Below are positions 5,755-47,110 of a DNA stretch of 64,000 nt, piece by piece. The stretch spans positions 1-64,000 of the forward strand of contig JAGXFP010000047.1 of the NCBI GenBank assembly GCA_024637225.1, read 5' to 3'. The DNA is from Desulfobacterales bacterium (GTDB lineage Bacteria; Desulfobacterota; Desulfobulbia; Desulfobulbales; JAGXFP01). A program made the translations under genes and the position numbers. Position 1 is the stretch's first letter. Each line of letters opens with the position of its first letter. Under the pieces are notes generated by a model. It was not told the DNA's origin, did not search any database, and saw only the letters and a program-made list of their open reading frames with translations.

Positions 5755-5806
5755 TAAAATTACTCCTTGCACGAATACCCGAAACGGGCGCCATGCCCAA
5801 TCGATT

Positions 5807-6313: not shown

Positions 6314-9099
6314 AGGCTGTTCACTACCTGAACGCAACGACCGCAGAGGGTCGGATGCTCCGTGGCGGAACCAACCGAGTCAGCCCTGGTCCAGCATCGC
6401 TCACACTTGCCTCCCGGGGCCGCTCTGACCAGAACGGCAAGCTCGGGAATCTCTTCCGAGACCACGGCTTCAGGTCCTGTTTCAGCAACCCGGTGAAGTT
6501 CGGAAACGATACAGATCGTCTTCAGTATTTCCCAGTTTTCCGCCATAAAATCGCCAAGTTGTTCGCCAACCCGGATATCCACCTCGGCCTCAAGGGGATG
6601 GCCGATCACCTTGTTCTGCCGGGCCAGTTCAAGCACCTTGGTCAACTCTCCCCGGACCCCGATCAACTTCTCCCACTTTTCATCCAATTCGGGCCGGACC
6701 CGCATTTCGTGCCGGGCCGGAAAAGCGGCCAGGGCTGCGTCTTCCTCCCGATTGGCGGCGGCGGGCAGATGGTCCCAGGCCTCGGTTGCCGTAAAGGTCA
6801 TAACCGGCGCCATCAGACGCACCAGGGTGTCCGCTAATTCGTAGAGTACGGTCTGAGCGCCCCGCCTGGCCGGAGAATCCGGGGCCGAGGCGTAGAGCCG
6901 GTCTTTGATGACATCGAGATAGAAGGCGCTCATGGTCACCGTGCAGAAATTGAGCAGGCTGTGAAAAATGGCATGGAATTCGAAAGTATCGTAGGAGTCC
7001 CGCACCTTTTTCTTGAGGTTTTCCAAACGGGAGAGGGCCCACTGATCGATCTCGCCTAGATCCTCGTAGGCAACCCCATCCCGGTCCGGCGCGAAATCAT
7101 CGAGATTGCCGAGCAGGTAGCGCAGGGTATTTCTGATCTTGCGATAGGCGTCGGAGAGCTGCCGGACGATGTTATCGGAAATCTTGATGTCGTCCCGGTA
7201 GTCTTCCGAGGCCACCCAGAGGCGAAGGATCTCGGCGCCGTACTGCTTGATGATCTTATCCGGGGCGATGACGTTGCCGACGCTCTTCGACATCTTCCGG
7301 CCATTCTCGTCAACCACGAAACCGTGGGTCAGCACGGTCTTGTAGGGCGGGCGGTTACGGGTGCCGACCGAGGCCAGGAGCGAACTCTGAAACCAGCCCC
7401 GATGCTGGTCGCTGCCTTCGAGATAGAGATCGGCCGGCGAAGAGAGGTCATCGCGAAGCTCTAGAACCGCGGCATGGCTGGTCCCCGAATCGAACCAGAC
7501 ATCGAGAATATCCTCTTCCTTTTCGAAATTATTCGATCCGCACTCCCGGCAGGTCGCGCCATCGCCGAGGAAATCCCCAAGCTCATGGGAAAACCAGGCA
7601 TCGGCCCCCTCCTTCATGAACAACTCGTCGATCCGGGAATTGACCTCGTCGTCATTGGCGACCGCCCCGCAATCCCGGCAGAGGATCGCGGTAATCGGCA
7701 CCCCCCAGGCCCGCTGCCGGGACAGGCACCAGTCCGGTCTGGTTTCGACCATGCCGTAGATCCGCTCCATGCCCCACTTCGGCACCCAGGTCACCTCGCG
7801 GATCGCCTTAAGGGCCCGCTCGCGCAAACCGTTTTTATCCATGGAGATGAACCACTGCTCGGTGGCCCGGAAGATCACCGGCTTTTTGCAGCGCCAGCAA
7901 TGGGGATAGCTGTGAGAGAGGCTGCTGTGTTTGATCAGATGACCGCTCTGCCGCATATCCTCGCAAATCACCGGGTTGGCCTTTTTATAGAAAAGATCGG
8001 CATAGGGACCGGCCTCACTGGTAAAGACCCCGCGGTTGTCGACCGGTGAGAGGATCTCCAAACCGTAGTTCAGGCCGGTCATATAATCCTCGCGGCCGTG
8101 CCCGGGGGCGGTATGAACACAGCCGGTCCCGGTTTCCAGGGTCACGTAGTCGGCCAGAACGATCAGCGAATCCCGGTCCAGAAAGGGATGACGGCACTTG
8201 CGGCCTTCCAGCGCCTTGGCCGAAAAGGTGTTCAGGATTTCATAGTCGGAAATTTCGAATTCGGCAAAGGCCTTTTCGACCAGAGCCTCGGCCATGATCC
8301 AGATCTCCTCGCCGACCCTGACTGCCGCGTAAGTGAAATCGGGATGAAAGGCCACCGCCAGGTTGGCGGGCAGGGTCCAGGGGGTGGTGGTCCAGATCAC
8401 CGCCGAGACTTGATGATCCCCCGCGCCGGGAATCAGATCTTTTACCTCGCCGACCAGGGGGAACTTCACATAGATCGAGTCGGAGGTGTGATTGGCGTAC
8501 TCGACCTCGGCCTCGGCCAGGGCGGTCTTGCAGGAGGGGCACCAGTGCACCGGTTTTTTGCTGCGCACCACCGCCCCGGCCATTAGAAACCTGTTAAACT
8601 CCCGGGCCGTGGCCGCCTCGTAGGAGTGGTTGATGGTCAGGTAGGGATTGTCCCAGTCGCCCAGGACGCCCAGGCGCTTGAACTCTTCTTTCTGGGTCTT
8701 GATCCACTTGCCGGCATACTTGCGGCAGGCCTTCCGGAAAGCAAGTTTGCTGATCTCCTTCTTCTTGGCGCCGAGTTCCTTGTCGACATTAAGCTCGATG
8801 GGCAGACCATGGCAGTCCCAGCCCGGCACGAAGGCACAGTTATAGCCGCTCATCCGCTTGGAGCGCAGGATGATATCCTTCAAGATCTTGTTAAGGGCAT
8901 GGCCCATATGGAGATGGCCGTTGGCATAGGGCGGGCCGTCGTGAAGGACGTAGGCGGGCCGGCCGGCGGCCGCTCCCAACAACTTTTCGTAAAGTTTTTC
9001 CTTATCCCACTTCTTCAAGAATTCCGGCTCGCGCTGAGCCAGATTGGCCTTCATCTTGAATTTGGTCTGGGGCAGGTTGAGCGTTGCCCGGTAATCCAT
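6310..9099 (-). CDS. ileS: isoleucyl-tRNA synthetase
   Basis: Class I synthetase charging tRNA-Ile. The 929-residue product has the HIGH motif (ANGHLHMGHALNKI, ~60-73), editing-domain segments (VIWTTTPWTLPANLA), KMSKS as GRKMSKSVGNVI, and a C-terminal zinc motif CERCW...CGRC. The second ATG (9099) is preferred because AGGAG is six bases upstream; the first ATG overlaps that site. ileS-lspA coupling is common in bacteria. Confidence 0.97.
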   Translation of the reverse strand: MDYRATLNLPQTKFKMKANLAQREPEFLKKWDKEKLYEKLLGAAAGRPAYVLHDGPPYANGHLHMGHALNKILKDIILRSKRMSGYNCAFVPGWDCHGLPIELNVDKELGAKKKEISKLAFRKACRKYAGKWIKTQKEEFKRLGVLGDWDNPYLTINHSYEAATAREFNRFLMAGAVVRSKKPVHWCPSCKTALAEAEVEYANHTSDSIYVKFPLVGEVKDLIPGAGDHQVSAVIWTTTPWTLPANLAVAFHPDFTYAAVRVGEEIWIMAEALVEKAFAEFEISDYEILNTFSAKALEGRKCRHPFLDRDSLIVLADYVTLETGTGCVHTAPGHGREDYMTGLNYGLEILSPVDNRGVFTSEAGPYADLFYKKANPVICEDMRQSGHLIKHSSLSHSYPHCWRCKKPVIFRATEQWFISMDKNGLRERALKAIREVTWVPKWGMERIYGMVETRPDWCLSRQRAWGVPITAILCRDCGAVANDDEVNSRIDELFMKEGADAWFSHELGDFLGDGATCRECGSNNFEKEEDILDVWFDSGTSHAAVLELRDDLSSPADLYLEGSDQHRGWFQSSLLASVGTRNRPPYKTVLTHGFVVDENGRKMSKSVGNVIAPDKIIKQYGAEILRLWVASEDYRDDIKISDNIVRQLSDAYRKIRNTLRYLLGNLDDFAPDRDGVAYEDLGEIDQWALSRLENLKKKVRDSYDTFEFHAIFHSLLNFCTVTMSAFYLDVIKDRLYASAPDSPARRGAQTVLYELADTLVRLMAPVMTFTATEAWDHLPAAANREEDAALAAFPARHEMRVRPELDEKWEKLIGVRGELTKVLELARQNKVIGHPLEAEVDIRVGEQLGDFMAENWEILKTICIVSELHRVAETGPEAVVSEEIPELAVLVRAAPGGKCERCWTRADSVGSATEHPTLCGRCVQVVNSL

Positions 9100-16782: not shown

Positions 16783-18588
16783 ATGCGAATGAGAGAAGCG
16801 GTCTACTCCATTCGTTTTCGCTTATTGGGAAGTCTTTTTGTGCTTCTGGGGTTATCCCTCGTCATTTGGATGTATGGTCTCTGGTCCTTTGAAAGGGACC
16901 GTTATATAAAAAACTCCGGAACAGAAGCTCTGCGGGCTGGGCAGACCATTGAACAGACATTGCGCCGCGCCATGCTGGAAAATGACTGGGACAGGATCCG
17001 CCGATCCGTCGGCGACATCCAGCAAATCATGCAGCCGGAGATGATCAGTATCCTCGCCTTTGACGGCAGGGTGGCGGTTTCCACCGACGACTCCCTGATC
17101 GGCATACGGCTCGACAGGAACACGATGGCGGGCTGCACCACCTGCCATAACGGCAGACAGGAACTCCCGGCAGCCGGTTCAGCCTTCCTGGAGACCGAAG
17201 CCGGCCCGATCCTGCGCAACACCATCAAAATATCCAATGCTCCCGAGTGTTATGGCTGCCATGCAGCAGACCGAGAAACACTCGGGGTCGTCATCTATGA
17301 CACCGCCTTCGACGGAACCTTCGCGATGCTGCACGATGTTCTGTTGCGCTCCGTACTCACCGGCCTTTTCACCTTCCTCGTCGTAATCGTCGTTTTATCA
17401 TGTATCATTCAGCGTTTCGTGCATCGGCCGCTCCATCAGCTGATGAATGGTTTCATCCATGTGGGCAGGGGTAATTTCGATTACTGGGTCGAGGTCCGGA
17501 CCAAAGGAGAATTCCGGGAGATGGCCGACCAGTTCAATGTGATGAGCCGGGCGATCGGCCGGTCATTTGTCGAGATCAAGCACAAGAACTGGGAAACCGC
17601 CAGTCTCTATGCCTTCGTGCGGCAACTGAGTCAGGCCATCGAGTGGAGTAAACTGCAAGGCATGATCACCAACCTGCTTTTCGAGACCTTCAGCGTCGAG
17701 CAGGTGGTGCTGTTGCTGCGGCAGGAAGAAAGGGAGGAGAAAGTGGTCGAGGTTTCCAGGTGGCGGGAAAACGACCAGCGCCTTAGTCACCGCGAATTTG
17801 ATAGCCGCAAGGAAATCGACGGGATGCCCGCCTGGATTATGACCGAATATCAAAAATGGCGGCAGGATGCCTTAAATTCTCCCGTTTTTTCCCCGGATGG
17901 CACCAGGGCCGTTTTACCGCTGACTTCCAAAAAGATGGCCATCGGCATGTTTTGCCTGCAACGGGGCCGCGATAATCCATTCAGCGAAGCGGAAAAGAAG
18001 CTAATCATGGCGGTTGGAGAGCAGATCAGCATTGCCATTGCCAATGCCAGATTATACCGGATGGCTATTACCGACGGACTGACTGATCTCTATGCCAAAC
18101 GTTACGGCGAATCCATTATCCGTAAGTTACTCGATGCCTACGAGCCCGCCGAGAATAACGGTTTTTGCGTGCTGATGCTCGATCTTGATCACTTTAAAGA
18201 GGTAAACGACACCCATGGCCATCAGGTGGGGGACGAGGTGCTGGTCCAGATCGCCGAATTGATCCGGGGCAGCATTCGCTTCGACGATATCGCCTGTCGT
18301 TTTGGCGGCGAAGAGTTTATTGTTTTGGTACTAGGAGCGCCGGAGGTGGGACGAGAAGCCGCTTCCCGCCTGCGGCAGGCCATTGAGCAACATGACTTCA
18401 GGTGCGGCGCCGGGTTGTCCCTGCGGAATACGGTCAGTATCGGGGTTGCGGCCTTTCCGCAACACGGCAAGACGGCCGAGGCGGTGGTCGCCGCCGCGGA
18501 TCAGGCTTTATATGAAGCAAAAAACAGCGGCCGCAACCGGATCGTATGTCTTGACGGCCATGCGTACTCCAAAGGGCTTCCGGACTGA
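16783..18588 (+). CDS. membrane diguanylate cyclase with two periplasmic c-haem motifs
   Basis: Likely synthesises c-di-GMP from two GTP in response to a periplasmic redox or ligand signal. Order of parts in 601 residues: TM helix ~11-32; periplasmic sensor region with C118TTCH and C156YGCH; second TM ~189-212; HAMP linker (RPLHQLMNGF...); GAF-like domain ~290-420; GGDEF domain ~425-590 with an intact FGGEEF active loop and the LDLDHFKEVND metal site. The two CxxCH motifs should bind haem covalently on the periplasmic side. GGGGGGAG lies seven bases before the ATG. The gene stands alone. A repeat A end and a repeat B copy follow it. Confidence 0.9.
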   Translation: MRMREAVYSIRFRLLGSLFVLLGLSLVIWMYGLWSFERDRYIKNSGTEALRAGQTIEQTLRRAMLENDWDRIRRSVGDIQQIMQPEMISILAFDGRVAVSTDDSLIGIRLDRNTMAGCTTCHNGRQELPAAGSAFLETEAGPILRNTIKISNAPECYGCHAADRETLGVVIYDTAFDGTFAMLHDVLLRSVLTGLFTFLVVIVVLSCIIQRFVHRPLHQLMNGFIHVGRGNFDYWVEVRTKGEFREMADQFNVMSRAIGRSFVEIKHKNWETASLYAFVRQLSQAIEWSKLQGMITNLLFETFSVEQVVLLLRQEEREEKVVEVSRWRENDQRLSHREFDSRKEIDGMPAWIMTEYQKWRQDALNSPVFSPDGTRAVLPLTSKKMAIGMFCLQRGRDNPFSEAEKKLIMAVGEQISIAIANARLYRMAITDGLTDLYAKRYGESIIRKLLDAYEPAENNGFCVLMLDLDHFKEVNDTHGHQVGDEVLVQIAELIRGSIRFDDIACRFGGEEFIVLVLGAPEVGREAASRLRQAIEQHDFRCGAGLSLRNTVSIGVAAFPQHGKTAEAVVAAADQALYEAKNSGRNRIVCLDGHAYSKGLPD

Positions 18589-33480: not shown

Positions 33481-33960
33481 TCTCTCTCTCCTTTAACCCT
33501 GATACTGTCGCAAAAGCACCCACAAGGGGCATGCAACCCGATCTACTGCGTCGTGGCGTATTTTTGTTCTTCGGCATACCACATGTATGGAATCAGGCAC
33601 CCATAAATTCCATGAACAAAAATGGGCTTTATGGCCAATTTGTCAATTTCAGGAATAATTCTGAAAAAGATCCGCGCATTACTCTTAAACCCCTAATTTG
33701 CAATAAAAAGTTGTTAAATAATTGCATTTTTGGTTAATGTTAGCGTCATGTCTACAAGATTACTAGTATAAATCCGAGTGGATTTTAATGTTGATGGCGC
33801 CGCAAAAAGAATCCGTCACTTGCGACTGGCATATTTCTGCTTAGCCATTCCGTGATTTTTTTGCGAGTTTGTCAATGTATCCGGACCCATTCCTAAACTG
33901 GGGCCGGCCAACCCATAAAAAACCAGCTGGTAAATAAAAACGGTACCGGGAGGAGTTTTG
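33481..33960. other. intergenic gap with degenerate repeat sequence
   Basis: No convincing gene. GTCGCAAAAGCACCC..AAGGGGCAT at 33507-33532 resembles the reverse complement of the repeat B right end, and GATGGCGCCGCAAAAAG at 33794 resembles its left terminus. The body between them does not match B and may be a different, palindromic repeat (GGCGTATTTTTGTTCTTCGGCATACC). A 68-codon frame here is not called. Confidence 0.4.
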
Positions 33961-34509
33961 ATGAAAAAGATTATAGGAATTGCGGCAATTTTGCTGATCT
34001 GGGTAGGATCGGCAAGCGGCGGAGTACTTAAGGTGAAAGTGCCGGTGGATGAATTGGAACAGATGAAATCCCGGCTTGAAACCCTGGAGAAGAAAAACCA
34101 GGAGCTGAAAAGCGAAATCACAACCCTGTCGCAAACCACAACCGATACCGAGATGAACGAGCGGCTGGAAAAGATGGCCCGGGAAAACGAAGGGCTCCAG
34201 CATGAGTTAAATATCCTGGCTGAGAAAACTACCGATGCCGAGATGAACGAACGGCTGGAAAAGATGGCCCGCGAAAATGAAGAGTTGCACCAGCAAGTCG
34301 CGGCTCTGGCTAAAAACCCCTCGCAAGAAGCCTCTTTAACCGAAAAAAAAGACAGCCGTATCGACGCTCTGGGCCGCGAAAATCGCCAGCTAAAAAGAAC
34401 GGTTACATCTCTTAAAGAATCGGGGACGGTACTGAGAAGCGATCGCCGAACGGCAAGACAGGTCTACTTTGAAGCGAATAAGAAATTCGCCTCCCATTCA
34501 TATAAATAA
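33961..34509 (+). CDS. exported coiled-coil protein with internal duplication
   Basis: A 182-residue protein of no recognised family. Residues 1-~21 form a signal peptide (MKKIIGIAAILLIWVGSASGG). Residues ~25-155 are heptad-rich coiled coil. A unit of about 33 residues containing EMNERLEKMARENE occurs twice in tandem (~60-92 and ~93-125) with nearly identical DNA. The C-terminus is basic. GGGAGGAG before the second start-like codon decides the ATG at 33961. A structural or scaffolding envelope role is a guess. A terminator follows at 34.5 kb. Confidence 0.75.
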   Translation: MKKIIGIAAILLIWVGSASGGVLKVKVPVDELEQMKSRLETLEKKNQELKSEITTLSQTTTDTEMNERLEKMARENEGLQHELNILAEKTTDAEMNERLEKMARENEELHQQVAALAKNPSQEASLTEKKDSRIDALGRENRQLKRTVTSLKESGTVLRSDRRTARQVYFEANKKFASHSYK

Positions 34510-34635: not shown

Positions 34636-36297
34636 TCACATAGCCTGCCTGGCAAAGACGTTGCCCTTCTCGGCCGCCCGGCTGTAATGTTTCTTAACCG
34701 AGGCCGGATTCATTTTAACTCCGGAACCGGTTTCATACATGTATCCCAGAAAAAAAGCGGCCATGGAGTTGCCTTTTTCGGAGGCGGCCTGCCACCATTT
34801 AACCGCTTCGGCGTAGCTTTTCCTGGTTCCTCTGCCGCTACTCTTTAAAAACCCCAAGCGGTACTGGGCGTCTGCATTACCTTTTTGCGCCGCGTCTGCA
34901 TACAATTTTACCGCAGCGCCATCGTCCCTTTTCACGCCTTCTCCGGTTTCATACATGTAACCAAGCCTGTACTGCGCTTCTACATGGCCCTGCCCTGCCG
35001 CTAACCCGTAAAATTTAGCGGCCTCAACCATGGATTGGGGGGTGCCGTCGCCTTGGGCGTAATTTTTACCGGTTTCAAACCGGGCCTCTACATGTCCCCG
35101 TTCGGCCGCGCTCTTGTGCCAGGCAAAGGCTTTGGCCGCGTTCTTATCGACTCCGAATCCTTTCTCGTAAAATCCTGCCAGTTTATACTGGGCTTCGGCA
35201 TCCCCCGCCTCGGCGGCCGTGAGTAGAAGTTCAAGCTCCAGGGCGGCCCCGGCTTGCGCATGACCTTGTTTAGCGGCCATTTTCCACCATTTGTTTGCCT
35301 CTGTCGTGTTCTTGTCAACCGCGTTGCCCGTGGCATACATGAGACCGAGAAGATATTGCGCCTCGGCATGGCCCTTTCCGGCCGCCTGTTCAAATCGCTT
35401 AAATGCTTCGGAATCATTCTGCTGAACTCCTTTACCTTCCTTGTACATCCGCCCCATCAGAAAAACCGCATGGGGATGCTCCTGGCTCAAGGCCCCGGCA
35501 AACGCATACTGGGCCTCGACATGGCCCTGGGCGGCCGCCTTCTGATACCAGCTGATCGCCTTGATGGCATCTTGGGGGGTATCTTTCCCGGCCTCATAAA
35601 ATTTAGCGAGCTTATACTGGGCTTCAGCATTACCCCCTTCGGCGGACCTTTTAACCGCTGCGAATTCATCACCGCCGCCTGCAACCGAGGAACCACCATC
35701 GACAGCTCCCGCCTCGACAGTCACGGCGGTATCGAATTTATCGGCGAGATCGGCTTTCGCCTTCACATGCCCCTGGGCTGCGGCCTTCTTCCACAATCTG
35801 ATCGTTTCGCCATTATCCTGCTCAACCCCCGAACCCGATGCATAAAGGGAACCGAGGGCATATTGCGCTTCGGCATGGCCCAGGTCCGCCGCCTGCTCGA
35901 TGAGCCGAACCGCCGCGTGCAGGTTTTTCTCGACGCCGGCGCCGTCACGATACATCTTGCCGATCAGAAAAGCGGCATCTGGATTACCATCAAGAGCCGT
36001 GGCAAACTCATATTGGGCCTCGACATGCCCCATGGTCGCAGCCTGATGATACCAGTTGACCGCATTGGCGATACTTTTCGTCACCCCGGCTCCTTCCTCA
36101 TAGGATTTCGCCAGATAATACTGGGCCTCGACATCTCCTGATTTGGCCGCGGCGATAACCGAAGCAAAGGGGAGCCCGGCATAGCCGGCGGCCCGGGCGA
36201 ATTCGGCCGACCCAATCAGAACCCCAAAAGCAGCCGCAAGAATCAGGATAAGACGCGGCATCAATACGAGAGTTCCCAGTTTTAAAGTTTCGGACAT
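34636..36297 (-). CDS. exported Sel1-like repeat protein
   Basis: A 553-residue protein made of about eleven Sel1-like (SLR/TPR-type) repeats of ~36 residues, with units such as AEAQYALGSLYASGSGVEQD and VEAQYRLGYMYETGEGVKRD followed by A-x-x-W-x-x-AA-x-x-GH. An N-terminal hydrophobic segment (~13-36, ending ARAAGYAG) is a signal peptide, so it acts in the periplasm or envelope, probably as a protein-interaction scaffold. AGAGG seven bases upstream supports the ATG at 36297. It is divergent from the cytochrome operon across a 250-bp AT-rich gap; a functional link is possible but unproven. Confidence 0.88.
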   Translation of the reverse strand: MSETLKLGTLVLMPRLILILAAAFGVLIGSAEFARAAGYAGLPFASVIAAAKSGDVEAQYYLAKSYEEGAGVTKSIANAVNWYHQAATMGHVEAQYEFATALDGNPDAAFLIGKMYRDGAGVEKNLHAAVRLIEQAADLGHAEAQYALGSLYASGSGVEQDNGETIRLWKKAAAQGHVKAKADLADKFDTAVTVEAGAVDGGSSVAGGGDEFAAVKRSAEGGNAEAQYKLAKFYEAGKDTPQDAIKAISWYQKAAAQGHVEAQYAFAGALSQEHPHAVFLMGRMYKEGKGVQQNDSEAFKRFEQAAGKGHAEAQYLLGLMYATGNAVDKNTTEANKWWKMAAKQGHAQAGAALELELLLTAAEAGDAEAQYKLAGFYEKGFGVDKNAAKAFAWHKSAAERGHVEARFETGKNYAQGDGTPQSMVEAAKFYGLAAGQGHVEAQYRLGYMYETGEGVKRDDGAAVKLYADAAQKGNADAQYRLGFLKSSGRGTRKSYAEAVKWWQAASEKGNSMAAFFLGYMYETGSGVKMNPASVKKHYSRAAEKGNVFARQAM

Positions 36298-36546: not shown

Positions 36547-37563
36547 ATGAACCTAAGAACAAGTCTTGTGAAGGGAGTGCTGCTCGGCGTCTTGCTGACA
36601 ATCCCTTTCACCGGCGGTTGTACGGGCAAGCTCAAGGAAGACAATCCTATAATTCCCGTTCGGGAGTATGAAAAAATGCTCCTCGGCAAACTTACTTCGG
36701 ACTATATAGGCAACGAAAACTGCCTTAAGGGATGTCATACCCATGACACATTAGCCCTCGATTTCAAATCGAGCACCATGGGCGACCAACTCCAACAATC
36801 CTCCCATGGCATGAAAATCGTCGACTGCGAGTCATGTCACGGCCCCGGCAGTGAACTGATGGATGAAATCGTCGGTCTCGATGTGGATAAAAACAGACAG
36901 GAGATCGTCGAAGCCCACCGGGATAACCTGATCAATTACAGTACCCTGCCGGCCGGCGCCCTCTCCCTGATCTGCCTGAAATGCCATACAACCAACGCGA
37001 CCTTTAATATTCATAACTGGAATTCCGGCGTCCATGTCTTTAACGGCGTATCCTGTTCCAACTGCCACCCGATCCATGCCGGAGCCGACCTGATTACCCC
37101 GCCCCGGGATGTTCCCGGTTTGTGCTTCTCCTGCCATATCGAATTAAAAGCCCAATTCTCTCTGCCGAGCCATCATCCGGTCAGGGAAGCCAAGATGTAC
37201 TGTGTCGACTGTCACGACCCTCATGGAACGGCAAATCCCGGTCAACTGAAAGAAATCAACGAAAAAGAGACCTGCGGACGCTGCCATACCGAAAAGACCG
37301 GTCCTTTTCTTTTCGAGCATGGCGACGTCACCGACAAATGCTCCAACTGCCACTCTCCGCACGGTTCGACCAACAATAATCTCCTGAAACTCCGGGAGCC
37401 TTTTCTTTGCAGGCAATGTCATCCGCAACATTCATCGGATGATACGCTTGCCGCCAAAAGCATGTTCAACACCAGATGTACGGATTGCCACTCGATGATC
37501 CATGGCAGCGACACACCGGGGGCAAGCACGGTTCCAACCAGCGGGGGGACTCTGACGCGATGA
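36547..37563 (+). CDS. decahaem c-type cytochrome lipoprotein (MtrA/DmsE-like)
   Basis: A 338-residue lipoprotein (lipobox TGGC, Cys25) that should carry electrons through or to the outer membrane. Nine CxxCH motifs are present (CESCH, CLKCH, CSNCH, CFSCH, CVDCH, CGRCH, CSNCH, CRQCH, CTDCH). A tenth, at residues 59-64, is CLKGCH, that is Cx3CH. Length and haem count match the MtrA/DmsE decahaem family, whose members usually plug an MtrB-type porin; the next gene overlaps it by ATGA and encodes such a barrel. A lipid anchor is unusual for MtrA. GGGGAAGGAG precedes the ATG. Confidence 0.9.
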   Translation: MNLRTSLVKGVLLGVLLTIPFTGGCTGKLKEDNPIIPVREYEKMLLGKLTSDYIGNENCLKGCHTHDTLALDFKSSTMGDQLQQSSHGMKIVDCESCHGPGSELMDEIVGLDVDKNRQEIVEAHRDNLINYSTLPAGALSLICLKCHTTNATFNIHNWNSGVHVFNGVSCSNCHPIHAGADLITPPRDVPGLCFSCHIELKAQFSLPSHHPVREAKMYCVDCHDPHGTANPGQLKEINEKETCGRCHTEKTGPFLFEHGDVTDKCSNCHSPHGSTNNNLLKLREPFLCRQCHPQHSSDDTLAAKSMFNTRCTDCHSMIHGSDTPGASTVPTSGGTLTR

Positions 37564-39542
37564 AAAAACCAATCTTACTTTCAGCCATTGTATTAGTGAT
37601 TCTGATGGGAGCTTCCGTCAGTTTCGCGGATTATAAGGATATCGCCGACGGAGTAGACTCCGTCTTTAAATTCTGGGCCGGCGGCTCGCTGCGGGAAACC
37701 GACACCACCGTCAATGAAAGCTTCGCCGACCAACAATCCCCCCCTCTTCCCGAAGCAGACGGCCGAGTCGGAACCGCCAAGGCCGGCGAGTACTACTATG
37801 GCGAAAGCTCGGCCAGCGGCGGTTTCTTTTTAAAGACGGCCAAACTGCCCCAGCGCATCCACCTGGAATTGGATTATTTTAACGACAAGGAATGGTACGG
37901 AGATTTCCGCTATTCATATCTGGACTATGTGCAGATCCGGGTCTTGCCCCGCCGCCTCTATCACAACCTCGACAATATCACGATTTACGACTTCACTCCC
38001 ACCGACCCGACCTTCTCCGAAATCGAAATAAATGACCAGGGCATCGACGACTACGGATTGCGCACCGACATCAACAAGTACAAGCTCCGCTTTAAAACAC
38101 CCAATTTTCCCTTCCATCTTTATGGTAACGGAGAGACCGTAAGGCGAGCAGGCACCCGGCAGGATCGTTTTCTGGGCGGCTCCGCTTTCTTCTCTGATCT
38201 GCTCAGAACCACCGAGAGCCGTGAAGTCGACCAGGAGAAACTGGAGTACACCATTGGCGCCAACGCCCACCTGGGAATGATCGAATTCGACCTTTCCCAT
38301 AAAAACCGTAATTTCGAGAGCGACGTGGACGCCCCCACCTACGATTACACAGGCGGCACTTCCGTGCACGGCGTCACCCCGGAACTTGAGGCAACCACCG
38401 ATACCCTGAAGATCCATACTTCCCATTCGGGCCGGATTTTTGCCGCCGCCACATTTTCACAGTTGAAAAGCGAAAACACAGACAGCGGCGCCGAAGCGGA
38501 AAACACATTGAGCTACGGGGAGATATTCTGGCTGCCCGCCACTTATCTGGCGATGACCGCAAAGTTCCGCCACCAGGAAAATGAATCCAGCTCCCCCGAC
38601 ACGGTTACGGGAACCGACTGGCAGGGAAACAGCACTACTTATATCGTCAATCCCGGCGTTGTGTCCGATACAGATACCGCCATTTTCAGTATTCGCTACT
38701 CTCTTATTCCTAAAACAAACCTTAATTTCAAATACACTAAAAAGATCAAAGAGGTCGATGATCAATCCGCCCAGGACTGGAGTACACCTCCCAAAAGGAC
38801 CAAGGACGAATATGAACTTGGACTGAGCAACTGGGTTATTCCGAAGGTCAGGACTACCGCCAAGTTTATTCATACCAGGGTTTCGACCGACTTAGATCCG
38901 AACTCGATAAACAATATGCCGGATCAGACCAATCAGGTCAATCTCGGGATGACCTGGACCATAACCCCTAAAATCATGACCTACGGCAACGCTTATGTGG
39001 CCAGGGAAGACACGGACAGCAACCGAATGGGAGGCGGCATCACCAACGCCAACGAGGCCGAAGCGTTGCGGCAGCGATATCTGTTAAGCATCGCCTTTAT
39101 GCCCACTGACAAGTTGACTATTTCACCCACCTATACTTATTTGTCCGACGAGGAAAGCCGGGATATAGTCTGGAACGCCGCGATCGACTCCGATTACACC
39201 AATGAACAGACCGCCCATAACTACGCACTAAACCTGCTCTACATGCCCGCCGAGATACTGGCCTTCAACTGTTCGGTAGACTACACAACAAGCGACGGCA
39301 ATTACTACCCGAGTCATCCCTTTATCGCTTCGACCGGCAGTTACAACACCGTCGAAGTCGCTCAGTTTTCCAGGGTGCGCACAGAGGAGATCAATGTGCG
39401 TTTCGATACCGATTTAGACCTCGACCATGGTTGGGGAATCGGCCTGAATCTCCGCTACACCGATTGGCGGGATGACTCATTCGACAATCCGGCCGATGGC
39501 GAATTCCTGGGCGGTCTGCTGAAGTTAACCAAGGTTATGTGA
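37560..39542 (+). CDS. MtrB/PioB-like outer-membrane beta-barrel porin
   Basis: A 660-residue outer-membrane protein. Residues 1-~23 are a signal peptide (ending VSFA-DYKD). The rest is rich in alternating aromatic/polar beta-strand sequence (FRYSYLDYVQIRVLP, LNLLYMPAEILAFNCSVDYT, IGLNLRYTDW), as expected for a large barrel of the MtrB/PioB type that sheaths a decahaem cytochrome. The ATG overlaps the cytochrome stop (CGATGA); the track's upstream extension runs inside that gene. The CxxC of Shewanella MtrB is not present. Similarity is by composition and context, so a database comparison would firm it up. Confidence 0.8.
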   Translation: MKKPILLSAIVLVILMGASVSFADYKDIADGVDSVFKFWAGGSLRETDTTVNESFADQQSPPLPEADGRVGTAKAGEYYYGESSASGGFFLKTAKLPQRIHLELDYFNDKEWYGDFRYSYLDYVQIRVLPRRLYHNLDNITIYDFTPTDPTFSEIEINDQGIDDYGLRTDINKYKLRFKTPNFPFHLYGNGETVRRAGTRQDRFLGGSAFFSDLLRTTESREVDQEKLEYTIGANAHLGMIEFDLSHKNRNFESDVDAPTYDYTGGTSVHGVTPELEATTDTLKIHTSHSGRIFAAATFSQLKSENTDSGAEAENTLSYGEIFWLPATYLAMTAKFRHQENESSSPDTVTGTDWQGNSTTYIVNPGVVSDTDTAIFSIRYSLIPKTNLNFKYTKKIKEVDDQSAQDWSTPPKRTKDEYELGLSNWVIPKVRTTAKFIHTRVSTDLDPNSINNMPDQTNQVNLGMTWTITPKIMTYGNAYVAREDTDSNRMGGGITNANEAEALRQRYLLSIAFMPTDKLTISPTYTYLSDEESRDIVWNAAIDSDYTNEQTAHNYALNLLYMPAEILAFNCSVDYTTSDGNYYPSHPFIASTGSYNTVEVAQFSRVRTEEINVRFDTDLDLDHGWGIGLNLRYTDWRDDSFDNPADGEFLGGLLKLTKVM

Positions 39543-39576
39543 GCTAAATCAAATCCACGCTAAGGATGAACAGGCC

Positions 39577-40482
39577 ATGCTAAAACTTCTTCTTGGTGCA
39601 GCCGTTCTGCTCTTCGCCAATATGCATCAGGTTGCCATGGCGGAGACAGTCGGTGCTTTAATGCCGGCAAAAGATATCCCTTATTATGTGGAGATTCACG
39701 ACACCATGACCCGGGAGTTGCAAAGCCTGAACGCGAATTCCAATGTTATACTCCAAAGACCTTCACCGAACGTGCGGGCCTGGAGCAATGCCACCCGTAA
39801 ACTGGTTATCCTGGGATCGGAAGTTATTGTCGCCTACGGTTCGGCTACGGCGATCTGCGTCGGCAGCGAAAACGAAGATGTGCCGGTGGTATACAGCGGC
39901 GCTTACAAACCGGCCGGGTGCGGGATTGCCGGCAAGGTGACCGGCATGGAATCGACTATTCCACTGGATAGCCTGATCGACAACCTTAAAAAAATCTCCA
40001 AGTTTTCTACACTGGCGATTCTCTATGCCAAGGAAGAGCAGGGTTCGATAATGCAGATGGAAGAAGCAGCCGCCCTGGCCGTTAAAGCCGGAGCCGAAGT
40101 TATCAAAATAGATGTCCACGATGAGAGTTCTTTTGCCCTTCCCGATGTCGATGCGGTCTTTTTGACCGGAGCCGCGACCATCAATCAAAAAGAAAACCTC
40201 GAAGCCATCATAACAAGCGCCCGCGCCAAGAAAATCGCCAGCGCCTCGGTCTTGAGCGGCACCTGTGAACTCGGCGTGCTTATATCGTTGTCGGCCAACC
40301 CGGAACATCAGGGTATAGGGACCGCGAAAATGGTGGCGGCAATCCTGGATGGAAAAAGTCCCGGGGACATCCCGCCCGATAAAAACCCGGAGGCCGAGAT
40401 GACCATCAACCTCAAGGAGGCCAAGGAACTTGGTTTCAGTGTCCCCTTTGAACTGCTCGGTACCGCCAGGTTGGTAAAATAG
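39577..40482 (+). CDS. periplasmic ABC substrate-binding-like protein, solitary
   Basis: A 301-residue exported protein (signal peptide ending QVAMA-ETVG). It resembles the PF04392 binding-protein family: two lobes, with LVILGSEVIVAYGSATAICV, VPVVYSGAYKP, KKISKFSTLAILYAKEEQGS and DAVFLTGAATINQKENLEAI. No ABC permease or ATPase is adjacent. Lying 34 bp downstream of the barrel gene and upstream of the 13-haem cytochrome, it is probably part of the same transcript. It might bind a small ligand or assist the conduit; the ligand is unknown. Confidence 0.75.
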   Translation: MLKLLLGAAVLLFANMHQVAMAETVGALMPAKDIPYYVEIHDTMTRELQSLNANSNVILQRPSPNVRAWSNATRKLVILGSEVIVAYGSATAICVGSENEDVPVVYSGAYKPAGCGIAGKVTGMESTIPLDSLIDNLKKISKFSTLAILYAKEEQGSIMQMEEAAALAVKAGAEVIKIDVHDESSFALPDVDAVFLTGAATINQKENLEAIITSARAKKIASASVLSGTCELGVLISLSANPEHQGIGTAKMVAAILDGKSPGDIPPDKNPEAEMTINLKEAKELGFSVPFELLGTARLVK

Positions 40483-40673
40483 TGTTTTATAAATTATCAT
40501 CTCGCTTCAACAGGCATGTTTCCGACCAGTAAATCATCAATCGGCGCATACCGAACGGTTGGGTCACTGCCAAGGCTTTAATTTTTATATCATCAATTTT
40601 ATCGCGTAAATATCTGGAAGGATGAATGGCCGCAAAGTCCCGTAAACCGGCTTGGCCGTGAAAGGAGGAAGTT

Positions 40674-43034
40674 ATGATGTCTGGTAAAAAAGTGATCCTG
40701 TTGGCCGCCTCTCTATTGGCTATGTCACTTTGGGGTTGCAGCACCGATTTCGATGCCGAAAACAATTCGGCCGCAAGCGATGCCACGATATCCGAAGCGA
40801 CCCTGGCTGGGGCGGGAAACTGCGTGGGCTGCCATGAAGATGCCGATCTGAGCACCGCCGACAGCCCCCAGGCCGTAGCCGATTATCTGGCCGGTAAGCA
40901 TGTCATCCATAGCACAAGCATCAATGCCGGTTCTGACTCCGGTTGTCTGGAATGTCATGACCCGCTGGGTGACGGTCCCAGCCTGGAGCAATACATTACT
41001 GACCCGGCTAATATCCCCCTTGATGGACTGGCCGCTGTAACCTGCGAAACCTGCCACGGCGGCGGTGGGGACCATGTAAGCGGGCAACTTCCGGTTCCCT
41101 ATGTAACTCCCGACTACAACCGCTGCGGCCAGTGCCACAACGCAGACGTTGACCACCACAAATACCACCCGGAAGCTGACAGTATTGTCGAGAAAGTCAG
41201 CGCTTCGCCCCATCTAACCGGGGTCCGGAAGACCGAAGCGCCTTGCGCAAAATGCCACTCCGATGAAGGCGCCAAACTCTACAAGAATGTAGTCGGTATT
41301 CCTGCCGTTATTGAAACAAATGCTTCCGCTGCAATAACGAAAGCTTCACCTATCCAGTGCCGGACTTGTCATCAGGCGCACAGTCTTGAACTGCTGCTTG
41401 CCGCCGATGAAAACTATCCGGGTTCAGCCGAATTCAATACCTGCACCAACTGCCACCAGACAGATTATGCCTACCACGGCGAAACCGGTCCGGTGGGACT
41501 CGATCTCGCCAGGGTGATCTACGATACCCATTTTGACGATCCATTTACCCCGGATATAGAAGGTTACAACCTGGGACCCGATCATGATCTGGATGATGAT
41601 CCGCTTACTACTATTTTTGGTTCTGCCAGCGAGCGGGTCTGCCGCGACTGCCATGACGTCCATGAGGCCGATACAACCATAAACAAGCAATGGGCCAACT
41701 CCAGCCATGGCGGAAATATCGCCCAGCTCAAAGCTGCGGCGGTTGTAGCAGCGGGCACCGCGGAAGCTGCCCTGACCGCGGGAGTTGACAGCACCACCGG
41801 CTCGGACTTCCCCGGCGACCTTACCACCGGCGATGCCTGGGAACATTACGACTGGAAAGACACCACCAATCGTGACACCTGCCAGCGCTGCCATACCGCA
41901 ACCGGGGCCAGGAACTACCTTGAGGCGATGATCTCTCTGAATGACGACGATACAACCAACGATATCACCTACGACCCAATCAATAATGACTTCAGTCACC
42001 TGGCCGGCAATGCCCAGGAGATGCTCTACTGCTGGGGCTGCCATGCCAACAACTCCGGCGATCTGCGTAATCCCGGCGGACGCACCATCGAATACGTCGA
42101 TGAGGACGGCGAGCTGCTGCCCGAGTTGCCGGTACTGCCCGATCTGGGCAAGTCCAATGTCTGCAATTCCTGCCACAGCGGCCGAGGCAATATGGATTCC
42201 TATGGTTTGAGCGGAAACCCGTCAACGCCCATGACCTCCGCACCCGGTTACACCGGCAAGAACGTCACCGCAACCCACTACCTGGCCGCTTCGGCAACCA
42301 TTTACCAGGCTCAAACCAAGGTCGGCTATCAGTACCCGGATTTGTCTTACGCCGATAAGTCTTTTTATAGTCATAAATCAATCGGAATTAACTCCGACTC
42401 TCCCGAAACAGGATCCGGGCCTTGTGCTTCCTGTCATCTTGAGGACTCCAATCATCGCCTGCAGATAATCGAAAGGGATGCCGCCGGGATTATTACCGAG
42501 TTAAAGGCCGCGATCTGCGTTTCCTGCCACAACGGGAAAAGCACCCTATTCGTGGCCGCGAGCCTGGTTGGCACAACCCAGGATATTTGGAATGATGTCA
42601 CCGAAACTGCGGTATCGACCACGGTTACTGCTCAGCTGGTCGATGATTCGGTTGCCGAACTCAACTCCAAGTCCGACGGCTTCCATGAAGCACTGGCTAT
42701 TGTCGCCGAGGAATTAGCCGCCGATGGACTTAATTTCACCCCGAATTCATACCCCTATTTTAACGGCCCCAGCTGGGTCAACGAAGGAACCTTCGGAGCG
42801 GCCCATAACCTTAACTATCTTTATAATGAACCGGGCGCTTACGCCCATAACCGCTTTTACGCCAAACGGCTGATCTTCGACTCGATCGACTGGCTGGACG
42901 ACGGAGTGCTTGACGGGACCATTAACATCGATGCCGTGACCTACCCTGACGCAGCCGCCTGGTTCGGGGCGGCCGAGACAGCCGATTCCACGGCCGTCCC
43001 GTCCATTGCCGTGGGTGATGCCAACCGACCCTGA
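40674..43034 (+). CDS. 13-haem c-type cytochrome lipoprotein, probable cell-surface reductase
   Basis: A 786-residue lipoprotein (lipobox SLWGC, Cys22; Ser at +2 suits outer-membrane sorting) with thirteen CxxCH motifs, from CVGCH near residue 48 to CVSCH near residue 625. The last ~160 residues have no haem motif and contain GPSWVNEGTFGAAHNLNYLYNEP, a segment resembling C-termini of other multihaem cytochromes. It is the expected third part of a porin-cytochrome conduit, passing electrons to extracellular acceptors. GGAGG precedes the ATG. The 190-bp gap from the previous gene may hold its own promoter. Acceptor unknown. Confidence 0.88.
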   Translation: MMSGKKVILLAASLLAMSLWGCSTDFDAENNSAASDATISEATLAGAGNCVGCHEDADLSTADSPQAVADYLAGKHVIHSTSINAGSDSGCLECHDPLGDGPSLEQYITDPANIPLDGLAAVTCETCHGGGGDHVSGQLPVPYVTPDYNRCGQCHNADVDHHKYHPEADSIVEKVSASPHLTGVRKTEAPCAKCHSDEGAKLYKNVVGIPAVIETNASAAITKASPIQCRTCHQAHSLELLLAADENYPGSAEFNTCTNCHQTDYAYHGETGPVGLDLARVIYDTHFDDPFTPDIEGYNLGPDHDLDDDPLTTIFGSASERVCRDCHDVHEADTTINKQWANSSHGGNIAQLKAAAVVAAGTAEAALTAGVDSTTGSDFPGDLTTGDAWEHYDWKDTTNRDTCQRCHTATGARNYLEAMISLNDDDTTNDITYDPINNDFSHLAGNAQEMLYCWGCHANNSGDLRNPGGRTIEYVDEDGELLPELPVLPDLGKSNVCNSCHSGRGNMDSYGLSGNPSTPMTSAPGYTGKNVTATHYLAASATIYQAQTKVGYQYPDLSYADKSFYSHKSIGINSDSPETGSGPCASCHLEDSNHRLQIIERDAAGIITELKAAICVSCHNGKSTLFVAASLVGTTQDIWNDVTETAVSTTVTAQLVDDSVAELNSKSDGFHEALAIVAEELAADGLNFTPNSYPYFNGPSWVNEGTFGAAHNLNYLYNEPGAYAHNRFYAKRLIFDSIDWLDDGVLDGTINIDAVTYPDAAAWFGAAETADSTAVPSIAVGDANRP

Positions 43035-43149
43035 TTGAATGAAACATCATATGATCCAAAGGTACCGTTATTCCGCTATGAGAGTGATTACGGGTGCCTT
43101 TATTGTTTTTTTATTTATAAACAAATAAATACTCCTGGCGGAGAAAGAG

Positions 43150-44409
43150 ATGCGCAATAAAAATAATCCACTGATCGTTAAAATACTGATCTTGACCGCA
43201 ATGCTCTGCTTCTCGGTCAGCGCAATGGCAGCCGATCCGGCCGAACTTGTCAGGCTGCGCCATTCATTCGAGTCAGAAAAATCCCGGGTTTCAAGTGAAA
43301 GCGGGCGCCGGGATCTGGTCAACAACTATATTCAGCAGTTGACTGATCTGGCCACCGATCTGAGGATTTACAAAAACGACCGGGAGGGGACTAACGCGGT
43401 CCGTCATGAAATCCGCAATGCTAAAAAAGAACTGGAAGCCGATCTTTCCCTTCCCAAGCCGGAACAGGAACCCACCAAGGCGCAAGCCCCCCCTAGGGCC
43501 GAACCGGAGCCGGTTCCAGTGGACAAACTGGGGCCGACAGTGACCGAATCTGCTACAAAGCCCGAGCCTGGATCGATACCCGAACTAACTGGCGGAAAAT
43601 TCGCTACCAAGCCCGGGCCGGAACCGGCCCCCCTGGACACCAGACCGGAAGCCAGACCCGCACCCCGACCGCAAGCAGATACTCCGGTTACCACGCCGAT
43701 AGCTAAGCCCATGTCCGAGCCTGAACCGCCAAAGGTCAATACTGCGCCTAAAACAAAATCCGCTCCCGCACCGGTGTCTAGCCCTGCAGAGACAGAAACC
43801 AGGCAAGCGCCGAAAAGAGTATCCAAACCGCAGCCGGAATCGGCAGCAAGGAAGAGGGCTCCTGAACCAGAGCCTAAGCCGGCACCAAAACCGGTGGTGA
43901 CCAACGCTGTCAAGCCCGCCGCGACCCCGGTTCCCGCAATACCAGCTCCCAAACCGGTGGTTAAGAAGGCGGCTCCGAAACCACAGCCTGTGCCAGCCGA
44001 GGAGAAAAAAGCCGCTCCCCCAGAAAAACACAGTCCCCAGACCCATGTCAGCAGCGAACAGGGTTTGGCCGGCCCGCCGGGCGTCAATGGTAAAAACGTC
44101 TATACTTTCGAGCTGCCCGGTATAGGAGAAACAACCACTCTCGCTTTCTGGGCAACCGGCAAGGAATCCCTCGATTCATACGGCAAGGTTTGGCTGATTA
44201 CCCCGGAAGGCCGCAGGAACATCCTCGGCATCTGGAAGGAAAGCTATCTTGATAAACCCTCCACCGAGGTTTATTCATATTACAACCTGAAACCGATAGC
44301 CGAGGATATAACCCGGAAGGTTACAACCCCCGGCACCTATAAAGTTGAATTCGAGTGGACCAACGGCAAGGACCCGTTAGTTATCTACCGGGTGGAAATA
44401 ACCTCCTGA
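43150..44409 (+). CDS. exported proline-rich protein with C-terminal beta domain
   Basis: A 419-residue protein of no recognised family. It has a signal peptide (~1-28, ending AMAADPAE), a helical region (~30-100), a low-complexity Pro/Lys/Ala/Glu stretch (~100-300; PEPEPKPAPKPV-type repeats, TonB-like), then a C-terminal domain (~305-419; YTFELPGIGETTTLAFWATG ... TYKVEFEWTNG) that looks all-beta. The linker could span the periplasm or bind peptidoglycan; the end domain could bind a partner. It is the last gene before a strong terminator, so probably belongs to the cytochrome transcript. GGAGAAAGAG precedes the ATG. Confidence 0.7.
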   Translation: MRNKNNPLIVKILILTAMLCFSVSAMAADPAELVRLRHSFESEKSRVSSESGRRDLVNNYIQQLTDLATDLRIYKNDREGTNAVRHEIRNAKKELEADLSLPKPEQEPTKAQAPPRAEPEPVPVDKLGPTVTESATKPEPGSIPELTGGKFATKPGPEPAPLDTRPEARPAPRPQADTPVTTPIAKPMSEPEPPKVNTAPKTKSAPAPVSSPAETETRQAPKRVSKPQPESAARKRAPEPEPKPAPKPVVTNAVKPAATPVPAIPAPKPVVKKAAPKPQPVPAEEKKAAPPEKHSPQTHVSSEQGLAGPPGVNGKNVYTFELPGIGETTTLAFWATGKESLDSYGKVWLITPEGRRNILGIWKESYLDKPSTEVYSYYNLKPIAEDITRKVTTPGTYKVEFEWTNGKDPLVIYRVEITS

Positions 44410-44437
44410 ACCTGCGCTTCACCTTGCTACAACTGAA

Positions 44438-44476
44438 AAAGGCCGGCGGATTTAATTATCCGCCGGCCTTTTTATT
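44438..44476 (+). terminator. strong rho-independent terminator ending the cytochrome operon
   Basis: AAGGCCGGCGGA pairs perfectly with TCCGCCGGCCTT around the loop TTTAATTA, followed by TTTTTA. Confidence 0.9.
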
Positions 44477-44694: not shown

Positions 44695-46872
44695 TCAGCA
44701 GGAAGAGTAGCCGCAACTCATACACTGGTTACAGCCGCCGCTGCGCCGCATCGACATCCTGCCGCAAGTCGGGCAGGATGAATAGGTAGAGGGCTCGACG
44801 TAAGGTTCCGGTTCATTCTCCACCTCGTCTTCGCTGCACTTATCAAGTACTTTGGCCAGGGCAGCCGGGATCGAGTAACTGCGGCCAAGATTACCGTTGT
44901 GCCAGGCCCCATCCGAAGAAATATCCTCAAGAGTGCGGGCGATCTTGCCGACCAGGCGATAATCGTGTTGCAGCGCCACGGAAATCACCCGCCCCAGCGC
45001 CTCGGCCAGGCCGTGCAGGGTCGAGCCTGATTTGGTGGTGTTGAGGAATATCTCACGGACATGCCCCTGTTCCCCACGGTTGGCGGTAACATATAACGGA
45101 GCCGGGCCGCGCCATTTGAAGGTGCTGCCCCGCCGTTCGCCCATGTCACTGAATTCCTGGGTTTTGACACCTTTACCGGTTTGGTCCGACAACACTCCTT
45201 CCATCGAAGAGTCTCTGAACATTGTGATTCCTTTCAGATTGCTCTTGCGGGCATAATCGAGAAACTTGCGAATGTCGGCAACCGTAGTTGATGCGGGCAT
45301 ATTGATGGTCTTGGAGACGGCGGTATGATTAAAGGACTGACATGCCTCCAGAATTCTGATTTGCTGATATGGATCAATTTCATGGGCGGTCTGGGTTGCA
45401 ATCCAGTCAAGTTTCTCGGCGCTGTAGGAATAAAACTCGAGGGGCACCAGGGTAAAGTCTTTCCACGATTCGTCGATGTCCTTGACCTTCCGAGTCTGAA
45501 TCATCGAGTAATAAGGTTCGACCCCGGTACAGGTTACCCGCAGCAGTTGCGATATCGAACCGGTCGGAGCCTGGGAGGTGGTTACCGAGTTATAAAGTCC
45601 GCCCATCTCTCTTAAGGGAACAAAGACATTTTCAATTTTTTTCAGCCAGTCCTTGTGGTCGGCAATTGCACTTTTCACAAAGGAGATCGCCTCGGTTTCG
45701 ATCTTGTCGACATAGGTTTTGTTCCATTTCCGGGGTTTGAGCTCCTGGCCCTTCTTTTTACTGATCTCGCCGTAATCAAGACTGCCCTGCATCGAACCGA
45801 GCATCAGGGCGAGCTGGGTTGATTTGGCGAAAAGCGGTGCGTCATGCTCATCGGCATAGGATATTTCGAAATGATTCATGGCATGATGCAGCCCGGTAAA
45901 ACCGATGCCGATCGGCCGGAACTTCAAGGTGTTATCCTTAATCCTTTTCACATTCGGGAAACCGCCCATGTCAAGAATTTCGTTGCCGGCAATGGCGGCA
46001 AGCCGGGCCGCTTCAAAAACATTGACAAGATAGGCATCTTTATCGATTTCCAGACATTTCGAGAGACTTACAGTAAGAAGGTTGCAAGCCGTGTCCTTGG
46101 TGGAAAGGTATTCTCCGCATGGATTAGAAAAGACCGGGTTATACTTGGCCGGTACCGGCGTATTCGCCAAGCTCTTTTTGGTGAACAGCAGGCCGGGATC
46201 CCCCGATTTCCAGATATATTCGGCAATGGTCTGGAGAAGTTCCTCGTTCTCCCAGAACTTTTCATCGGTAACGTTCACTGAAATGTTACATCCCGTATAC
46301 TTGCCGGGATTATCGCCCTTGAAGGTGATGAAATCCATGATGTCGGGAATGTCCCAATTTGCCTGGATCATTAGAGCGCCACGCCTTTTCCCGCCTTGAC
46401 TGATCCGGGCGGAGAGATGGGAAAACCCCTTGGCAAAAGAGACCGGACCCGAGGCGGTGCCCTGGCCGTTATCGACGATGGTGCCGCGAGAACGCAGATT
46501 GCTGACATCGATCCCGCCGCCGCCGGCGTGCTGGAAGATGGAGACCAGATCACGTTCCATATCGAAAATCGCCTCGGTCGAATCCTCGACATCGCCGAGA
46601 GGGTAGCAGGAATAATAACCCTGCCTTGAGGTATGGGGGTTACCGCCGTTCATCAGAAAAGGGGTGGCGGTAATAATCCGGCCATGGGAAAGGGCCTTGG
46701 CGACATCCTCACTTGCAAACTGGCCGCTGACCCTGGTCATCACCTTGGAAAAATCCTCTTCCACCGGGGTGCCGGTCTTGGGATCGCGAATGGCGTAACG
46801 GGCCTGGACCAGATATTGTTCAAAACGCTCCCACTCTTCAAGAGCCTCATCATAAGAAATCGGCAGTTCCAT
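44695..46872 (-). CDS. nrdJ: adenosylcobalamin-dependent (class II) ribonucleotide reductase
   Basis: Reduces ribonucleotides to deoxyribonucleotides with B12, without needing oxygen. The 725-residue protein shows HTSRQGYYSCYPLGD (first redox cysteine), QHAGGGGIDVSNLRSRG, SQGGKRRGALMIQANWDIPD, the active-site NPCGEYLS segment and PTGSISQLLRVTCTGVEP. The C-terminus is cysteine-rich (CPTCG, CNQCMSCGYSSC) and probably shuttles electrons to the active site. The ATG at 46872 has AGGAG six bases upstream; the track's TTG is one codon earlier. A pair of NrdR boxes lies 240 bp upstream. No class I or III enzyme is in the window. Confidence 0.95.
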   Translation of the reverse strand: MELPISYDEALEEWERFEQYLVQARYAIRDPKTGTPVEEDFSKVMTRVSGQFASEDVAKALSHGRIITATPFLMNGGNPHTSRQGYYSCYPLGDVEDSTEAIFDMERDLVSIFQHAGGGGIDVSNLRSRGTIVDNGQGTASGPVSFAKGFSHLSARISQGGKRRGALMIQANWDIPDIMDFITFKGDNPGKYTGCNISVNVTDEKFWENEELLQTIAEYIWKSGDPGLLFTKKSLANTPVPAKYNPVFSNPCGEYLSTKDTACNLLTVSLSKCLEIDKDAYLVNVFEAARLAAIAGNEILDMGGFPNVKRIKDNTLKFRPIGIGFTGLHHAMNHFEISYADEHDAPLFAKSTQLALMLGSMQGSLDYGEISKKKGQELKPRKWNKTYVDKIETEAISFVKSAIADHKDWLKKIENVFVPLREMGGLYNSVTTSQAPTGSISQLLRVTCTGVEPYYSMIQTRKVKDIDESWKDFTLVPLEFYSYSAEKLDWIATQTAHEIDPYQQIRILEACQSFNHTAVSKTINMPASTTVADIRKFLDYARKSNLKGITMFRDSSMEGVLSDQTGKGVKTQEFSDMGERRGSTFKWRGPAPLYVTANRGEQGHVREIFLNTTKSGSTLHGLAEALGRVISVALQHDYRLVGKIARTLEDISSDGAWHNGNLGRSYSIPAALAKVLDKCSEDEVENEPEPYVEPSTYSSCPTCGRMSMRRSGGCNQCMSCGYSSC

Positions 46873-47110
46873 CAATTACTCCTTGTAAATTAAAGTTTTG
46901 GACATTGAAATTAAGATGGCGGGCAAAAAGCCAGGATCACCATTGATGCCACTTCATCCAGACGGAAGAAATCCTGGTAATACCAACGGATTTGAAAAAA
47001 GATTTCTCACCCAGTGTATGCCCAGCAGTTGTTTCGACTTTTTGCGAATTAATCAGATAAGAAAGGCCTGAAAAAAAGACCTGCGCGGATTTATGGAAAA
47101 AGCTTACATA
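46873..47110. other. long nrdJ leader, no recognised riboswitch
   Basis: About 240 bp between the NrdR boxes and the ATG. I looked for a cobalamin riboswitch because the enzyme uses B12, but found no convincing B12 box. TTCGCAAAAAGTCGAAA on the minus strand resembles the start of repeat B without the rest. A 60-codon frame here is not called. Confidence 0.4.

Follow-up and report, generated by a model that had tools for sequence, protein, structure and literature searches.

We propose that the locus analysed here encodes an electron conduit from a distinct lineage of the MtrA-MtrB kind, which is tied to sensing in most of its members and would serve more for electron exchange in the clade to which the locus itself belongs. 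We favour this reading with moderate confidence. The locus lies in a stretch of 64,000 nucleotides from a Desulfobacterales genome, hereafter the window. That its products would form an MtrAB-type conduit is, in our judgement, highly probable.

Composition of the locus

A sequence-only reading had described a compact porin-cytochrome locus of five genes. All five open reading frames were found in the ORF list of the window where that reading had placed them, on the plus strand (Table 1). The run of genes in one direction ends at a strong terminator, and the decahaem and barrel genes are joined by an ATGA overlap, both as that reading had stated. Folding of the window sequence revealed no strong terminator inside the five-gene locus. 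The intergenic gaps measure 191 nt before the 13-haem gene and 115 nt before the proline-rich gene; a single transcript for all five genes is possible.

Table 1. Features of the conduit locus and its neighbours in the window, and a gene pair on another contig of the same genome (locus L179, with positions of its own).
Feature	Position	Strand	Description
Exported coiled-coil protein	33958-34509	+	BLASTP and HMM matches in L041-L046
Exported Sel1-repeat protein	34636-36297	-	PF08238 (Sel1), 297 bits; divergent from the conduit genes; homologues in L041-L046
Decahaem gene	36547-37563	+	338 aa; predicted lipoprotein (Cys25); MtrA/DmsE family c cytochrome
Barrel gene	37560-39542	+	660 aa; outer-membrane beta-barrel; 4-nt overlap (ATGA) with the end of the decahaem gene
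ABC_sub_bind (PF04392) binding protein	39577-40482	+	301 aa; periplasmic, TrpX-like
13-haem c cytochrome lipoprotein	40674-43034	+	786 aa; 13 CXXCH in the translation; probable cell-surface subunit
Proline-rich exported protein	43150-44409	+	419 aa; C-terminal part conserved; accessory, patchy
Rho-independent terminator	44436-44473	+	Hairpin and T tail; 16-pair stem, -30.3 kcal/mol, z -7.1 (folding)
L179 haem-CXXCH kinase-like protein	5176-7701	-	841 aa; own genome, other contig
L179 PhnD-like binding protein	7900-8811	-	Own genome, other contig; encoded with the kinase

The decahaem protein scored 239.4 bits against TIGR03508, above the curated cut-off of 192.2, and is the sole protein of its own genome to exceed that cut-off. 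Its profile matched PDB 6r2q_A (MtrA), a chain of 333 residues, with an E value of 9.3e-54; 6r2q is titled as an Mtr complex entry, and the molecule label printed for chain A, which does not fit, is presumably a mislabel. The ten haem-binding sites claimed for this protein are present, but a plain count of CXXCH gives only nine, since the first haem site is a CX3CH motif (CLKGCH). The CX3CH motif occurs in 80/80 decahaems of the named loci that were fetched, and both the lipobox residue Cys25 and C59-C63-H64 are invariant in 18 aligned relatives. According to work cited in PMC4245776, CX3-4CH motifs bind haem. The lipid anchor, which had been taken for a peculiarity of this locus, turned out to be general in the lineage and to occur in the GSU2203 family as well.

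TIGR03508 is named for DmsE, and the conduit might therefore be thought DmsEF-like and serve an extracellular oxidoreductase for DMSO, arsenate or a selenium oxyanion. However, the genes that directly surround the unit in the window encode neither a molybdopterin subunit nor any other oxidoreductase subunit, and we regard such a function as very improbable. Further large multihaem cytochrome genes with partial matches to the decahaem model lie elsewhere in the own genome (G000:C4:12912-16019 and G000:C9:7934-19697), and these are possibly other electron-transfer clusters.

The barrel of the window gave no match to PF11854 (MtrB_PioB) or TIGR03509 in profile searches. The TIGR03509 search of the whole own genome was likewise blank, a result that, taken alone, would wrongly suggest that no MtrB relative exists. 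An AlphaFold2 model built with 63 aligned sequences (pLDDT 86.8) contained 26 long strands, and the MtrB barrel has 26 strands. When the model was compared with the PDB by Foldseek, the best match was MtrB (6r2q_B; E 4.9e-19, TM 0.72), ten orders of magnitude ahead of the next barrel (E 6.6e-09, TM 0.41). Among the 63 aligned barrels, PF11854 matched 45 (E <= 0.01), TIGR03509 matched 31 (E <= 0.001) and NF041027 matched all 63. Because of the fold model, the Foldseek match and the matches of the relatives to PF11854 and TIGR03509, the barrel is predicted to be of the MtrB kind. Profile searches against the MtrB families failed for the window protein itself and succeeded for many of its aligned homologues. 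The predicted fold is nearest to MtrB, and the result that the sequence-only reading had named as refuting, a barrel unrelated to MtrB-type porins, was not obtained. Shewanella MtrB carries an N-terminal CXXC motif, which is not known to be universal in the family; the window barrel translation holds no CXXC. Together with the TIGR03508 score, the MtrB fold supports the earlier assignment of the locus to porin-cytochrome conduits of the MtrA/MtrB kind.

Two further genes of the window were noted. The first (16783-18588, plus strand) encodes a membrane protein of 601 aa whose predicted periplasmic part has two CXXCH motifs; HAMP, GAF and GGDEF-like domains follow, as read from the translation, and the product is a possible haem-c-sensing diguanylate cyclase. 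The second (44695-46875, minus strand, TTG start) encodes a cobalamin-dependent ribonucleotide reductase-like protein that scored under all curated NCBIfam cut-offs, and L042 holds a copy that is 79% identical.

A three-gene unit and the sensor genes beside it

We surveyed 80 named loci, mostly from Desulfobulbales-like and Nitrospirota genomes, plus relatives of the same order. Genes were counted from stop-to-stop ORFs and profiles, as greedy ORF calling misses genes in GC-rich loci. The order of decahaem, barrel and binding protein recurs in Desulfobulbales, other Desulfobacterota (the same triad in L163, L166, L167 and L169) and Nitrospirota. The barrel gene follows the decahaem gene in 77/77 testable loci, most commonly through a 4-nt overlap. 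The arrangement of these first three genes is not due to chance, because their order and strand are kept in dozens of genomes. The conserved unit comprises three genes and not the compact five that had been described.

The binding protein had been called solitary and foreign to known conduits; instead, it is a core partner, encoded after the barrel in 58 of the 64 testable loci. It scored 80.4 bits against PF04392 (cut-off 25.9), and its nearest PDB entry is 3lft (E 1.2e-14). PF04392 is named after ABC transporters, and one could suppose that the protein belongs to such a transporter and stands at this site by chance. However, neither permease nor ATPase genes lie beside it in the window, and synteny contradicts the supposition, since 58/64 loci, from at least two phyla, have the protein in this position; we consider a chance placement extremely improbable. 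A redox switch formed by cysteines of the binding protein was rejected, since none of them is conserved. In L069, L084, L097, L101, L118 and L119, a CX3CH decahaem and a barrel were found and the binding protein was not detected; L069, L097, L101 and L119 form one subclade of the decahaem tree.

Sensor genes were counted in the 53 loci, window included, in which the sequence runs on for 1500 nt or more past the binding protein. In 22 of these, the genes directly downstream encode a PhnD-like binding protein (PF12974) and a HAMP histidine kinase; in 21, the next downstream gene encodes a chemoreceptor (in L102, after a multihaem gene). A chemoreceptor gene lies just upstream in two loci, one locus has the PhnD-like gene only, and seven have none of them. 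Because a kinase or chemoreceptor directly follows the binding protein in most members, we regard the lineage as tied to sensing. A 4-nt overlap with the next gene of the sensor module is possible at 36/47 junctions, a count biased towards overlaps, because it took the start nearest the stop codon. The start of a histidine kinase or chemoreceptor gene fell within 9.5% of random 2.6-kb windows from the same loci, versus 43/52 observed; the loci are related by descent, and the p-value of this comparison is not to be taken literally. Haem c is likely to be held in the periplasmic sensor domain of the kinases, because in every one of the 23 that were detected a CXXCH lies after the first membrane helix and before HAMP.

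In six Nitrospirota loci (L064, L078, L083, L090, L092 and L094), the unit stands inside a CheA/CheW cluster, within the limits of the contigs. The order in L092 is response regulator, CheA, AAA ATPase, CheW, multihaem lipoprotein, decahaem, barrel, binding protein, chemoreceptor, chemoreceptor, CheW and HEAT; homologues of this cluster surround the unit in the other five loci within the extent of their contigs.

Judged by sequence, these loci constitute a distinct conduit lineage that is recognized by a CX3CH first haem and an ABC_sub_bind protein encoded with the wire, and the window has the gene order of this lineage, with its CX3CH decahaem, barrel and binding protein. The earlier suspicion that this may be a variant system was well placed. 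A search of the open-access literature returned no unit in which MtrA/MtrB-like genes stand together with ABC_sub_bind proteins and sensors, and a description elsewhere is conceivable.

The clade of the window and the proposed mechanism

The window and L041-L046 make up precisely the seven loci in which no sensor is linked to the unit. No kinase or chemoreceptor gene adjoins the unit in the window or in these six clade mates, which together form one branch of the decahaem tree (support 100/100) with a long stem of 1.17. The function of this clade may have shifted, because its members lack an adjoining sensor and form a single long-stemmed branch. Genes for an exported coiled-coil protein and a Sel1-repeat protein, which the earlier account of the locus had left out, adjoin the unit in 7/7 clade members. 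The coiled-coil gene directly follows the binding protein gene in L043, L045 and L046, and in L041, L042 and L044 it has the same upstream place as in the window.

The other two genes of the locus are less constant. The 13-haem protein has a lipobox-like LWGC and scored 80.0 bits against PF22113, an MtrC/MtrF-like domain (cut-off 30). A sequence search of the PDB with this protein returned no match, and a structure model built with eight relatives was unusable (pLDDT 34.8). Three of the seven clade members have its gene near the unit (window, L041 and, on the opposite strand, L044), and relatives of it adjoin the unit in some members of the family. The proline-rich protein matched no Pfam or NCBIfam model, and its gene also occurs in three of the seven (window; L041, partial and in the same place; L042, on the opposite strand). 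Since both genes are patchy and partly encoded on the other strand, the five-gene locus is a local arrangement and not a conserved unit.

Alternatively, the conduit could be sensory in the window too. The own genome (G000:C31, locus L179) encodes a pair of a PhnD-like protein and a haem kinase on a contig other than that of the conduit, and this pair could read the redox state of the wire. This pair shares homology with those that are linked in the relatives, and it also occurs in G003, G012 and G004, that is, in four clade genomes with the own genome. In G004 (contig C91, locus L180, 1736-5813, plus strand), genes for an ABC_sub_bind protein, a PhnD-like protein and a haem kinase stand together without decahaem or barrel; the sensing module exists on its own, and its parts can separate. 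However, the unlinked kinase shows its strongest homology only over the sensor and HAMP part, the clade genomes G005 and G019 yielded no haem-domain kinase although both have the unit, and a contact between conduit and kinase is purely hypothetical. We therefore consider a sensory conduit in the window unlikely. Energy taxis is doubtful for this host, because flagellin was not found in its genome (G000, 88% complete); it was not found in G001 or G004 either.

As another alternative, the conduit might be purely respiratory throughout the lineage and only carry respiratory electrons to or from minerals, electrodes or partner cells; the role of its neighbours would then be confined to regulating it or to guiding the cell by cues of another kind. 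The MtrAB-type conduits characterised so far are respiratory (PMC4245776, PMC8805035), the clade of the window has no linked sensor and in three members has a 13-haem partner, and two proteins of the own genome that match NapC/NirT-family models over the cut-off could feed the conduit. The adjoining genes may be co-regulated only. However, the frequent possible 4-nt overlaps and the occurrence of two sensor types in the same place make regulation alone a strained explanation; moreover, chemoreceptors are not transcription regulators, and most loci of the lineage have no partner of the 13-haem type within the stretch read. We judge a purely respiratory conduit possible, with a probability well short of even.

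For the reading that we favour, a conduit tied to sensing in most members, gene content, protein families, the predicted barrel fold and synteny were observed, and from here we infer the assembly of the conduit, the direction of electron flow, a contact between binding protein and wire, and the signalling. By analogy with MtrAB, the barrel would form the sheath and the lipid-anchored decahaem would be the wire running through it and carrying electrons. The 13-haem lipoprotein, to go by its sequence, is probably the outer-surface contact in its own genome. The redox state outside the cell, or a linked ligand, would be passed to the periplasm, where the binding protein or proteins and the sensor would read the signal. 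In the clade of the window, where the sensor gene does not adjoin the conduit, the wire would more likely serve electron exchange as such.

We hold only tentatively, and at somewhat less than even probability, that the lineage senses through its wire. Equally tentative is a stronger proposal, in which this widespread conduit lineage is a dedicated sense organ and the window a derived case whose wire was uncoupled and gained a surface cytochrome. In such an organ, the ten-haem wire would hand the signal to the periplasmic binding proteins, and from these it would reach a haem kinase or Cache chemoreceptor. This would amount to a touch-like sensing of minerals and electrodes, in which the redox state of outside solids or of partner cells is read. 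For the window locus as it now stands, electron exchange with the surface cytochrome is the more likely use.

Relation to known conduits and sensory systems

The locus resembles MtrA-MtrB(-MtrC) of Shewanella and MtoAB/PioAB in that a decahaem of the DmsE/MtrA family adjoins a 26-strand barrel of the MtrB fold. Unlike Shewanella Mtr, the window locus has a CX3CH first haem, a lipid anchor and a barrel that has diverged beyond the MtrB models, and its lineage has the binding protein within the unit and, in relatives, linked sensor genes. The nearest described kin is the GSU2203/GSU2204 family (NF041028/NF041027), in which a decahaem lipoprotein is likewise encoded beside a related barrel. In contrast to the lineage of the window, however, the decahaem there has ten CXXCH motifs, the barrel carries a single CXXCH, a binding protein is absent, and the family forms a separate clade (100/100). 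The window proteins score below the cut-offs of this family (NF041028, 224.7 versus 325; NF041027, 57.6 versus 350).

The Pcc conduits of Geobacter (OmbB-OmaB-OmcB, ExtABCD) follow the same three-part logic, with a barrel, an inner multihaem cytochrome and an outer one. In G. sulfurreducens, the inner Pcc cytochrome carries 8 haems; Pcc and Mtr have been described as phylogenetically unrelated (PMC4245776). A conduit of the Pcc type was rejected, as the inner cytochrome here has ten sites and belongs to the MtrA family.

On the sensory side, Shewanella requires mtrBC/omcA and the Cache chemoreceptor SO_2240 to gather at minerals (PMC5789149). The conduit of the Nitrospirota relatives similarly neighbours a Cache-type chemoreceptor, which recalls congregation and energy taxis in Shewanella. 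In Shewanella, the locus tags are distant and the conduit is the respiratory one, whereas in the relatives described here conduit and receptor form one genetic unit. Geobacter needs EsnABCD for growth on electrodes, and CheW and CheA genes flank an ATPase gene there (GSU2220-2222; PMC5585712). L092 shares these kinds of gene with Esn, with CheA, ATPase and CheW in a row. Neither a conduit within Esn nor a periplasmic input domain in EsnA is reported (PMC5585712). By analogy, the experiments in Shewanella and Geobacter make a sensory reading plausible, although neither paper reports a conduit and a sensor encoded together.

The lineage bears on how bacteria sense insoluble electron acceptors. 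The electrode sensing network of Geobacter has a chemoreceptor without evident extracellular input (PMC5585712). A conduit, binding proteins and a sensor encoded as one unit would permit a direct test of a conduit as a signalling input. An MtrAB-like gene pair in a Nitrospirota or Desulfobulbales genome is to be read with caution, as not every such pair is proof of mineral respiration. Our findings suggest that some bacteria may use such wires to sense, besides breathe, solid surfaces outside the cell.
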